A DNA stretch of 29,124 nt from positions 1 to 29,124 of the IMG/VR virus record IMGVR_UViG_3300030098_002844; one strand, 5' to 3'. A program made the position numbers and the translations under genes. The stretch is from a virus. Of the stretch, positions 9,999-13,696 are shown in pieces; the stretch's first letter is position 1, and every line of letters begins with the position of its first letter. The notes under the pieces are model-generated. The model saw nothing but the letters and a program-made list of their open reading frames with translations. It made no database searches and was not told the origin of the DNA.

Positions 9999-10547
9999 AT
10001 GACAGTTAACTACAGAAGAACCGCATTAGATAAAGACACTACATTTTATATTCCAAAAGTAGAATGTTTTGCTTGTTATGACTCTGGTTTAGTATCTAAT
10101 TCAGATGGTTTTGTAAATAGATTTATTCCAGACTATGACAGAGATAAAAAAGGAAATATTTGCGGTGGACAAGATTTAGCAATTATTTGTCATTGTAAAG
10201 CTGCTTATGAAAAAGAAACTGATGAAGATAAAACCAAAAAAGGTTTTAGAGATAACCATGGAAATATAAATACTGTTTTATCTATTAGAGGAGAACCACA
10301 ACCTGTTGGTTTTTCTATGGAAAAAGAAAAGATAAGGCAAATACATACAGAGAGAAAACAAAACTGGGAAAAAACTGCAAAAGATGTAAACCAACTACGA
10401 AATAAAAGAGCAAATGGAGAGAAAGTTGAAACACCTTACTACATAGAAGTTGTAAAAGAAAACTTAACTAAGGTTGATGGCTTGTTTTCTTTTCCTTCAG
10501 AAAAAGCTATCGTAAAATCAATGCAAAAAACTAATGACAAAAATTAA
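9999..10547 (+). CDS. Hypothetical replication-region protein with Cys cluster (182 aa)
   Basis: The N-terminal part has C-F-A-C-Y-D-S-G-L (CxxC) and, about 45 residues later, I-C-G-G and I-I-C-H-C-K-A (CxC), enough ligands for one structural zinc site. The rest is charged and helical (K-E-K-I-R-Q-I-H-T-E-R-K-Q-N-W). The C-x-x-C-x-x-x-G start resembles Zn modules in phage helicase loaders and primase-associated proteins. It starts seven bases after the initiator, so a loader or initiator partner is reasonable but unproven. No Walker motif is present, so it is not a DnaC-type ATPase. The 3' end overlaps the ParB-like gene by 14 bases. Confidence 0.6.
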   Translation: MTVNYRRTALDKDTTFYIPKVECFACYDSGLVSNSDGFVNRFIPDYDRDKKGNICGGQDLAIICHCKAAYEKETDEDKTKKGFRDNHGNINTVLSIRGEPQPVGFSMEKEKIRQIHTERKQNWEKTAKDVNQLRNKRANGEKVETPYYIEVVKENLTKVDGLFSFPSEKAIVKSMQKTNDKN

Positions 10548-11037
10548 CGAACTTAAGTCTGACCATAAAAACGCTAGAAAAAGAACAGACCGCTCTGCGT
10601 CTTTAATACAAGAATCATTAGAAAGATATGGTGCAGCAAGATCAATAGTTATTGATGAAGATGGCCGTATATTAGCTGGCAATGGAACTGTAGAAGGTGC
10701 GAAAGCTGCTGGCTTAGAAAATGTTCGTGTTATTGAATCAGATGGCAAAGAGATTATTGCAATAAAACGTACTGGACTTACAGAAGATCAAAAAGTTGGT
10801 CTTGCTCTTGCAGATAACAGAACATCTGACTTGTCCGATTGGGACGCTTCAATGCTTCATCATTTATCAATGGAACATGAAATAGACCCATGGTTTGAAC
10901 CAGAAGATTTAACAGAACTAATGGACGATAGGACAGATGCAGAAGCACCCGAAGATTTTAAAGATGTTGATGAAGATATAGAAACTGAACACAGATGTCC
11001 TTCTTGTGGCTATGAGTGGAGTGGAAAAGCAAAATAA
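10534..11037 (+). CDS. ParB/Srx-fold protein with C-terminal CxxC
   Basis: A 167-residue protein. Residues about 12-95 form a ParB/sulfiredoxin-like domain: L-I-Q-E-S-L-E-R-Y-G-A-A-R-S-I-V-I-D, then the nucleotide-site motif G-R-I-L-A-G-N-G-T-V-E-G-A, then L-T-E-D-Q-K-V-G-L-A-L-A-D-N-R. An acidic linker leads to R-C-P-S-C-G-Y-E-W, half a zinc ribbon. Phage members of this fold often neighbour DNA methyltransferases or PP-loop proteins (compare IbrB with IbrA), and relatives include kinases and nucleases. Here it opens the modification cassette and overlaps the PP-loop gene by 26 bases. A specificity or small-molecule-activating role is inference. Confidence 0.85.
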   Translation: MTKINELKSDHKNARKRTDRSASLIQESLERYGAARSIVIDEDGRILAGNGTVEGAKAAGLENVRVIESDGKEIIAIKRTGLTEDQKVGLALADNRTSDLSDWDASMLHHLSMEHEIDPWFEPEDLTELMDDRTDAEAPEDFKDVDEDIETEHRCPSCGYEWSGKAK

Positions 11038-11839
11038 TATAAGAACTCTTTTACAAGAAATAATAAAACCATTACCAAAAGAAATTTGTGTTGCAACATC
11101 TGGTGGTATTGACTCTTCTTCTGTTGTTTTATCTGCTCTTGATGTAGAAAAAAAAGTACGAATATATTCATTTACTTTTGGAAAAGAAAAATTTTCATCT
11201 GACTTTGAAGCAGCAAGAAAACTTGCATATAAATTTAGCCTTACATTTGTACCTGTTTTTTTACCTGACAAACAAGATGAGATTGTTGAGACTGTAAAAT
11301 ATCTTATAAAAAAAGTAGGTTGTAGGAAAAAAACTGCCATAGAGTGTCTTTTTCCTTTTTACTATTTAATAAAAATAATGAAAGAATTTAAAGATGAGAC
11401 ACTTGTGACAGGTGTTGCTGCTGATGGCCACTTTGGGCTTTCTAAAAAAGCAATGATACATTATTCAAAAGATGAGTTAAAATTTAAAAAATTTAGACAA
11501 GATTATTTTGCAGACCTAGAATCTGCTGGCACTAAACGATTAATGAAACTCTGTGAGTTAAATAAAATACAACTTTGTAATCCATACTTTTATCCTTCTG
11601 TTTTTTCTTTATGGATAAATAAAAATTGGCAAGAATTAAATAAACCAAGACAAAAAGAAGTTATACGCAAGCATTATCCAGAATTAGATTGTTTAAAAAT
11701 AAAACCACATACAAACTTACAACTTGGTGACAGCAAGATTGCAGAAACAGTTGGAAATGCGGTAATTTCTAAGTATAAACCTAATTCAAAATCACCAATT
11801 GGTATCTATAACAGAATCGCAAAAGGCATCTATGCCTAA
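11012..11839 (+). CDS. Asparagine-synthetase-type PP-loop ATPase (lone synthetase domain)
   Basis: A 275-residue protein matching the C-terminal AMP-forming domain of AsnB-like enzymes. The PP-loop is T-S-G-G-I-D-S-S at 29-36. A second motif, T-G-V-A-A-D-G-H-F-G, corresponds to the G-E-G-A-D-E-L-F-G segment. A later L-C-N-P-Y-F matches the region before the last helices. The N-terminal class II glutaminase domain is absent, so the amine donor would be free ammonia or another amine. Such enzymes activate a carboxylate with ATP and form an amide. I start at the ATG; a GTG two codons upstream is possible. It overlaps the DNA methyltransferase start by 8 bases. Confidence 0.8.
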   Translation: MSGVEKQNNIRTLLQEIIKPLPKEICVATSGGIDSSSVVLSALDVEKKVRIYSFTFGKEKFSSDFEAARKLAYKFSLTFVPVFLPDKQDEIVETVKYLIKKVGCRKKTAIECLFPFYYLIKIMKEFKDETLVTGVAADGHFGLSKKAMIHYSKDELKFKKFRQDYFADLESAGTKRLMKLCELNKIQLCNPYFYPSVFSLWINKNWQELNKPRQKEVIRKHYPELDCLKIKPHTNLQLGDSKIAETVGNAVISKYKPNSKSPIGIYNRIAKGIYA

Positions 11840-12890
11840 ACCAGAATACAAAATACCTTCTATGAAAGAAATACAAGCAACACCATGGAATGGTTTTAAA
11901 GTTGCTTCAACATTTTCTGGCTGCGGTGGTTCTTGTCTTGGTTATCGTATTGCTGGATATAAAGTTGTATATGCAAACGAATTTATAGAATCAGCAAGAC
12001 AAACTTATAAAGCTAACCACCCAAACAGTTTTCTTGATCCAAGCGATATAAGAAAAATTACTGCAGATGATATTTTAGATAAAATTAATTTAAAAAAAGG
12101 CGAGCTTGATCTATTTGATGGTAGTCCGCCTTGCGCTGCTTTTTCTATCGGTGGTAAACGTGAAGCTGGTTGGGGTAAGGAAAAAAAATATAGTGAAACA
12201 ACCCAAAGAGTTGATGATTTATTTTTTGAATATGCTCGAATATTAAATGGTTTACAACCAAAAGTTTTTGTAGCAGAAAATGTTGCTGGTCTTGTACAAG
12301 GTACAGCTAAAGGTTATTTCAAACGCATTCTTTCTAAACTGCGTGATTGTGGTTACAACGTAAAATGTAAGGTCTTAGATGCTCAATGGCTGGGTGTTCC
12401 ACAGATGAGAAAGAGAACAATTTTTGTAGGAGTTAGAAATGATTTAAATATAGAACCAGTACACCCAAAACCAATTAAATATCAATATTCTGTAGGCGAA
12501 GCACTTATCGGTGTTGAAGAATCTAACGAATATAAACACATTGATCCAAATACAGAAACTTATCGTTTATGGAAACTAACAAAACCCGGCGATCAATTTT
12601 ATAAAGCAGCATTAAAGCTTACTGGTCAAAATAAATTTTTTTCTCATGTAAAGCAATCTCCATTTCGTGTTGCTAATACTGTTGTACAAGGAACTATGGA
12701 TAAATATCATTGGTCAGAACCTCGCTTGTTTACAATTCAAGAATTAAAACGAATCAGCAGTTTTCCTGACGATTTTATTTTGCATGGTAATCTGTACCAA
12801 AAGTGGGAAAGAGTCGGTAGGGCTGTACCACCACTTATGATGGCCAAAGTTGCTGAAACTATTGCCAAAAATATTTTAGAGAAATGTTAA
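11832..12890 (+). CDS. C5-cytosine DNA methyltransferase with variant motif X (Asn to Arg)
   Basis: A 352-residue enzyme starting M-P-K-P-E-Y-K-I-P. All core motifs are present: I, T-F-S-G-C-G-G-S at 27-34; IV, G-S-P-P-C at 97-101 with the nucleophile Cys101; VI, E-N-V at 149-151; VIII, Q-M-R-K-R at 191-195; X near the C-terminus. Motif X reads V-G-R-A-V-P-P, with Arg330 where nearly all family members have Asn. That Asn lines the cofactor pocket (N304 in M.HhaI). The engineered M.MpeI change at this place gives carboxy-SAM use. With a CmoA-like gene nearby, I suspect a carboxymethyltransferase. A plain m5C enzyme is the alternative. No restriction partner is seen. Confidence 0.92.
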   Translation: MPKPEYKIPSMKEIQATPWNGFKVASTFSGCGGSCLGYRIAGYKVVYANEFIESARQTYKANHPNSFLDPSDIRKITADDILDKINLKKGELDLFDGSPPCAAFSIGGKREAGWGKEKKYSETTQRVDDLFFEYARILNGLQPKVFVAENVAGLVQGTAKGYFKRILSKLRDCGYNVKCKVLDAQWLGVPQMRKRTIFVGVRNDLNIEPVHPKPIKYQYSVGEALIGVEESNEYKHIDPNTETYRLWKLTKPGDQFYKAALKLTGQNKFFSHVKQSPFRVANTVVQGTMDKYHWSEPRLFTIQELKRISSFPDDFILHGNLYQKWERVGRAVPPLMMAKVAETIAKNILEKC

Positions 12891-13042
12891 AAATTAAATT
12901 TCCTTCAGATCCTTACCACGGTATGATTTTTTACTCAACATACGATAAAAGAACCTATGAATTTTTAAAAGATTTTGATGGTTATGATAAATGGTATGAC
13001 ATCACAAATGAAGACCTAGATCCTCTTACTGGATTACATTAA
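12884..13042 (+). CDS. Small hypothetical protein inside the modification cassette (52 aa)
   Basis: A complete ATG-started frame of 52 codons between the two methyltransferase-fold genes. It overlaps the end of the first by seven bases, and its TAA directly precedes the ATG of the second. Composition is Asp/Tyr-rich (F-P-S-D-P-Y-H-G-M-I-F-Y-S-T-Y-D-K-R-T-Y-E, then D-G-Y-D-K-W-Y-D-I-T-N-E-D). Strands with alternating aromatics suggest a small beta-hairpin or SH3-like fold. The tight spacing argues that it is a real gene. Function unknown; it may be a specificity or adaptor subunit. Confidence 0.65.
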   Translation: MLKIKFPSDPYHGMIFYSTYDKRTYEFLKDFDGYDKWYDITNEDLDPLTGLH

Positions 13043-13696
13043 ATGGACATACCTACAAACTGGTCTTTTGAAACTTCTAATGTTGCAAGAGGTTTTGATC
13101 GTCATGTACGAGAACAACTTCCTTGGTATGACTTAGCTACAAATGCAATTCTTCATGTAGCAAGACATTATATTCCTCAAGATGGTCTTGTTTATGATTT
13201 TGGTGCATCTACTGGTAACATTGGCAGAGCATTAGCACCAATTTTAAAAGAAAGAAATGCACATTTTATTGGCATAGAACCAAGTCAAGAAATGATAAAA
13301 CTGTATAAAGCACCGGGCGAAATAATATGCAGCAAAGCAGAAACATTTATTGCAAAAGATTTTGATTTATCTGTTTTATTTTTATGTTTAATGTTTATTC
13401 CACCAGCCAAAAGATTTAATCTTATGCTAAGACTAAGGGAGAAATGTAAACCCGGAGGAGCAATTATTGTCTTTGACAAGTTAGAACCAATTGGTGGCTA
13501 CGCTTCAACTGTTTTCTATCGTCTTACACTAGCTGGCAAAAAAGCATCTGGTACAAATTCAGATGAGATAATTGAAAAAGAATTATCTTTGTCAGGTGTA
13601 CAAAGACCTATTACAGAAGATCAACTTGCTGGCGATTTCATAAACTGGTTTAAATTTGGCGATTTCTCCGGATACCTTATTGAAAAAACAGCATAA
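13043..13696 (+). CDS. CmoA-like SAM-binding protein, possible carboxy-SAM synthase
   Basis: A 217-residue Rossmann-fold protein. The N-terminus has W7-S-F, G17-F-D-R-H-V and L26-P-W-Y, matching the CmoA lead-in (W-T-F-D, then S-V-P-G-Y). Motif I is V-Y-D-F-G-A-S-T-G at 50-58 and the ribose-binding acid is in I-G-I-E79-P-S-Q-E-M. L-C-L-M-F-I-P-P and K-P-G-G-A-I-I-V-F-D-K follow. The C-terminal E-L-S-L-S-G-V-Q-R-P-I-T aligns with CmoA's L-E-N-V segment, but the Arg of CmoA Q-K-R-S is not kept. CmoA converts SAM and prephenate to carboxy-SAM for tRNA cmo5U. No CmoB is seen here. An ordinary methyltransferase is the main alternative. Confidence 0.75.
   Translation: MDIPTNWSFETSNVARGFDRHVREQLPWYDLATNAILHVARHYIPQDGLVYDFGASTGNIGRALAPILKERNAHFIGIEPSQEMIKLYKAPGEIICSKAETFIAKDFDLSVLFLCLMFIPPAKRFNLMLRLREKCKPGGAIIVFDKLEPIGGYASTVFYRLTLAGKKASGTNSDEIIEKELSLSGVQRPITEDQLAGDFINWFKFGDFSGYLIEKTA

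Follow-up and report, generated by a model that had tools for sequence, protein, structure and literature searches.

A virus record of 29,124 bases (IMG/VR IMGVR_UViG_3300030098_002844; the whole stretch is hereafter the window), which holds portal, terminase, head, and tail genes, very likely (roughly 93% by our estimate) carries a phage DNA hypermodification cassette of the CmoA-CmoX-CmoY kind, with a chemistry that we infer from characterized homologues. The four gene kinds concerned (ParB, ligase, CmoX, and CmoA) have been reported together, and ParBc genes have been reported as companions of CmoX (PMC12783734). The features of the window locus are as follows.

10534..11037, plus strand: ParB-like protein, the usual CmoX companion (phrog_620, 1.2e-29; same place in relatives)
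11006..11839, plus strand: predicted CmoY-like ATP-dependent amide ligase (277 amino acids [aa], GTG start; Pfam Asn_synthase, 7.2e-9; phrog_26038, 3.8e-41)
11832..12890, plus strand: predicted CmoX-like DNA cytosine C5-carboxymethyltransferase (352 aa, ATG start; matches to Pfam DNA_methylase and 8YF3)
12132..12137, plus strand: catalytic Cys101 (TGC), then Ala102 (GCT), where canonical C5-methyltransferases have Gln after Cys
12819..12821, plus strand: Arg330 codon AGG in motif X, equivalent to Asn304 in M.HhaI and Arg350 in SpCmoX
12884..13042, plus strand: small open reading frame (ORF) of about 52 aa between CmoX and CmoA, seen in the sequence; some relatives have this segment and others lack it
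13043..13696, plus strand: predicted CmoA-like Cx-SAM synthase (217 aa; phrog_4752, tRNA methyltransferase, 8.8e-46; PDB matches to CmoA)

The methyltransferase homologue and its cassette

The CmoX ORF contains WERVGRAVPPLMM, is open over 352 codons (an alternative, longer TTG start is possible at 11799), and matches Pfam DNA_methylase (E = 6.9e-61). The C5-methyltransferase fold and the catalytic SPPC motif are both found in it, and motifs I (FSGCGGS), IV (SPPC, with Cys101), VI (ENV), VIII (QxRxR), and X are present. Two hallmarks of canonical C5-methyltransferases are missing: the motif X Asn is Arg330, and the Gln that follows the catalytic Cys elsewhere (PPCQ in HaeIII, Q82 in M.HhaI) is Ala102. 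The original prediction had located the AGG codon for Arg330 exactly, in what proves to be an intact C5-methyltransferase homologue; its statement that all other motifs are intact is not quite true, for the residue after the catalytic Cys has changed as well. It had also judged decay unlikely. The frame is open, and since all close relatives with sequence at this position retain the Arg, sequencing error and decay were both rejected as origins of Arg330.

By sequence, the best PDB match of the window CmoX is 8YF3 (5e-75), which is also the top match of its predicted fold (mean pLDDT, 87.6; Foldseek, 6.6e-32). This entry is the CmoX of Synechococcus phage S-B43 (SpCmoX), a DNA cytosine C5-carboxymethyltransferase with Cx-SAM bound (PMC12783734). 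SpCmoX uses only Cx-SAM, not SAM, and yields 5-carboxymethylcytosine (5cxmC); its Arg350 replaces Asn304 of HhaI and touches the Cx-SAM carboxylate, and the R350N variant uses neither SAM nor Cx-SAM (Yang et al., Nat Commun, Dec 2025; PMC12783734). Full-length identity between the window CmoX and SpCmoX is 40-43%, and Arg330 aligns on Arg350. By analogy with the characterized homologues, the window enzyme would use Cx-SAM, and the group that it transfers to DNA cytosine is very probably carboxymethyl rather than methyl. The pairing of this Arg with the carboxylate of carboxy-SAM, as originally proposed, gains support from the equivalent Arg350 in 8YF3 and from the CmoA-like gene downstream. 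The proposal is correct in substance but already published for a homologue (PMC12783734), and it had overlooked the neighboring CmoA, ligase, and ParB genes.

The S-B43 system shares with the window the C5-methyltransferase fold, SPPC, Arg at the motif X Asn site, and CmoA and ligase neighbors. It differs in that the window has a ParB-like gene directly upstream and the small ORF between CmoX and CmoA, and in the position of CmoA, which lies downstream of CmoX in the window and upstream of the ligase in S-B43. Avoidance of the GC dinucleotide, the SpCmoX target, was sought in the window and not found; GC is over-represented there (observed/expected, 1.35), which says nothing on specificity. 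As cited in PMC12783734, a basic residue at the motif X Asn likewise lets a C5-methyltransferase use Cx-SAM in engineered M.MpeI N374K; that enzyme is a laboratory mutant for CG sites, whereas the window residue is natural, is Arg, and goes along with a missing Gln after Cys.

Methyltransferase clusters with such gene kinds also occur in phages S-B43, Mcat8, and TurkishDelight. Moraxella phage Mcat8 and Streptomyces phage TurkishDelight resemble the window in having ParB, an Arg-type methyltransferase, and CmoA in one cluster, but Mcat8 is without a recognized ligase and the TurkishDelight ligase is of the glutamine amidotransferase type. Separately, Gordonia phage Evaa (L286; genes 1, 2, and 5) carries a CmoA-like gene in the vicinity of a ParB gene and of a ParB_N-methyltransferase fusion (phrog_5475), and the stretch examined contained no recognizable C5-methyltransferase; this locus is possibly another user of Cx-SAM.

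CmoA and its association with loss of the motif X asparagine

The window CmoA has its best PDB matches in 1im8, 4gek, and 4iwn (4e-13 with the single sequence, 1.6e-39 with a profile). Against TIGR00740 it gives an E value of 2.2e-15 and 57 bits, below the cutoff of 193; the active SpCmoA gives 116 bits. It thus resembles the E. coli and Haemophilus influenzae CmoAs (tRNA cmo5U Cx-SAM synthases; 4gek and 1im8 among the best matches) in fold and overall sequence. In E. coli CmoA, Arg199 binds the Cx-SAM carboxylate (PMC3663124); the window protein has Glu180 at this site, and E. coli CmoA is without the Arg71 that most phage CmoAs have. Since the biochemically active SpCmoA likewise has Glu there, Arg199 does not define phage CmoAs, and it was dropped as a criterion of CmoA function. 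Among 80 nonredundant CmoAs, Glu at the Arg199 site came with Arg at position 71 in 50 of 50 cases, and Arg at that site came without Arg71 in 16 of 19, a pairing that phylogeny may explain; the window protein has both Arg71 and Glu180.

Relatives of the window CmoX were gathered from viral contigs and bacterial genomes by methyltransferase alignments alone, and removal of near-copies at 90% left 166 nonredundant relatives. CmoA was in the locus in 93 of the 100 with Arg in motif X and in none of the 66 without it (Fisher p = 9e-39). When all copies were counted, nine Arg loci had no CmoA match; in L199 and six others of these, the contig ends less than 2 kb downstream of the methyltransferase, the usual place of CmoA. 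L096 has a partial CmoA end at the contig edge, and the genomes of L245 and L199 each hold a CmoA-like gene at another place. On the tree, Arg was clustered, with six changes, and CmoA followed in most pairings; only three independent pairs were well supported, too few for a phylogenetic test of Arg against CmoA to reach significance. Arg-type CmoX genes were also seen, mostly with CmoA, on bacterial contigs (L245, a Chloroflexi metagenome-assembled genome, and L192-L223) from Verrucomicrobia, Acidobacteria, Actinobacteria, Cyanobacteria, and others.

A change just after the catalytic Cys accompanies the one in motif X. The residue there was Ala in 67, Ser in 30, Cys in 2, Val in 1, and Gln in none of the 100 Arg-type enzymes, and Gln in 52 of the 66 non-Arg relatives. 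To make M.HhaI accept larger cofactors, engineers change Q82 and N304 in combination, the two positions concerned within conserved motifs (PMC10666283), and nature appears to have altered the same pair, although the second residue became Arg where engineers use Ala. PMC12783734 names SPPC and R350, and a search of its main text turned up nothing on the Gln after Cys. Gene content, residue identities, homology, and this joint occurrence of Arg, Ala or Ser after Cys, and CmoA are direct observations.

A reading of the window enzyme as a common 5mC methyltransferase that still depends on SAM, its Asn having become Arg with no change of cofactor, is highly unlikely. Its overall fold and catalytic motifs are indeed those of a C5-methyltransferase, but SAM is not used by SpCmoX, which also has Arg at this site (PMC12783734), all members of the clade share the Arg, which co-occurs with CmoA, and the Gln after Cys has been lost as well. 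A role of the CmoA-like gene in tRNA wobble modification (cmo5U), with an incidental place beside the methyltransferase, is barely credible, although its CmoA homology and the phrog name "tRNA methyltransferase" might suggest it: such genes adjoin Arg-type methyltransferases across very diverse phages and were at 0 of 66 non-Arg loci, no CmoB was found among the neighboring genes examined, and the published phage system uses CmoA for DNA (PMC12783734). A decayed or silent cassette can be dismissed with similar assurance, as no support for it was found (the CmoY start is GTG, and the overlap with CmoX is short) and each of the four genes keeps an open frame that is conserved across dozens of relatives.

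A second lineage has the CmoA association without the Arg. In SPbeta-like staphylococcal phages and vB-SscS-F1, cmoA lies within one or two genes of an HhaI-like C5-methyltransferase (with a ligase between the two in vB-SscS-F1) whose motif X reads VVGGVINQ, that is, Gly-Gly with no Arg, and which keeps the Gln after Cys. Within this HhaI-like lineage, CmoA accompanied 6 of 6 Gly-Gly loci (L283:5989-7685, L284:5986-8504, and L288-L291) and 0 of 13 readable Gly-Asn relatives, although this is a single comparison, the Gly-Gly enzymes being one group and the Gly-Asn relatives distant. Loss of the motif X Asn thus goes with CmoA twice, and Arg is not the sole form of that loss. A single SPPC-plus-Arg rule for all CmoA-linked methyltransferases was therefore rejected; a search by SPPC and Arg, as in PMC12783734, would miss the staphylococcal type.

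Ligase exchange between sibling phages

The window ligase, which adjoins CmoX, is a synthetase-only (PP-loop), asparagine-synthetase-like protein with no glutaminase domain; asparagine and beta-lactam synthetases are the closest matches of its predicted fold. It is about 35% identical to SpCmoY, an ATP-dependent 5cxmC-glycine ligase (PMC12783734), with which it shares the SGGxDS PP-loop, the KKT..EC, ADG, and SKKA motifs, and the lack of a glutaminase domain. It differs from SpCmoY in belonging to a strongly diverged set of alleles swapped at one site.

At this site (window 11006-11839; L008, L009, L013, L020, L024, L025, L043, and L124), alignments demonstrate, at the level of sequence, replacement of the ligase core between sibling phages: cores only about 55-75% identical sit in phages that share 90-99% identity elsewhere, and the borders, close to the ends of the gene, are sharp. 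Nucleotide identity between the window and L008 is 95% in ParB, 67% in the ligase, 92% in CmoX, and 95% in CmoA. Between L043 and L124, it is 97% before the ligase, 60% in the ligase core, 99% in the last 100 bases of the ligase, and 98% both in CmoX and after it. The L043 ligase shares 75-80% identity with the ligases of the L008 group, though the CmoX of that group is only 72% identical, and the L124 ligase has 76-79% identity to the window type; each CmoX lineage therefore has both ligase types. Chimeric assembly is made less likely by the recovery of either type on several contigs from different samples and by samples 3300030060 and 3300030389, each of which gave both. PMC12783734 has no account of such an exchange in its main text, and the literature searched yielded no other CmoX/CmoY paper.

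Replacement of the PP-loop Asp by Ser (SGGISS; L008, L024, L043, L049, and L054) was always accompanied by gain of an Asp in the loop that follows (GLCDDG), in 5 of 5 SGGISS ligases versus 0 of 20 others, as if a metal ligand had moved. Other relatives (L016, L027-L030, and L034) have ParB, a CmoX with 74-75% identity, and CmoA, with no ligase between ParB and CmoX; in L016, L028, L029, L030, and L034, none was found elsewhere in the whole records (up to 25 kb). Phages without the ligase may stop at 5cxmC.

Proposed chemistry and its meaning

For the window phage, we infer the following chemistry, as well as the target dinucleotide, the amine, and the protective role. CmoA (13043-13696) would convert SAM and prephenate to carboxy-SAM. 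In CmoX (11832-12890), Cys101 would attack cytosine C6 and the carboxymethyl group would pass to C5, with Arg330, in place of the motif X Asn, holding the carboxylate and Ala102, in place of the bulky Gln, making room; the product would be 5-carboxymethylcytosine in phage DNA. CmoY (11006-11839) would then use ATP to activate the carboxylate and join it to an amine (glycine in one studied case), and the amidated base would mask the phage DNA from host nucleases. We propose tentatively, at somewhat less than even odds, that keeping the CmoA-CmoX handle while ligase alleles diverge by about 40% gives different cytosine amides in near-identical phages, and that the amine in the window phage is not glycine.

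The CmoX chemistry, the cassette, and the role of the Arg are already known (PMC12783734); the ligase exchange, the missing Gln behind the catalytic Cys, and the staphylococcal type without Arg are new. Raw sequence here supports a chemistry reported only once, and Ala or Ser after the catalytic Cys provides a second database mark by which natural carboxymethyltransferases can be told from methyltransferases. The ligase step is where near-identical phages exchange alleles. If it is true that the ligase alleles attach different amines, they would form a natural enzyme series for placing chosen groups on DNA, and the site would be the locus of an arms race, much like the glucosyl variation among T-even phages.
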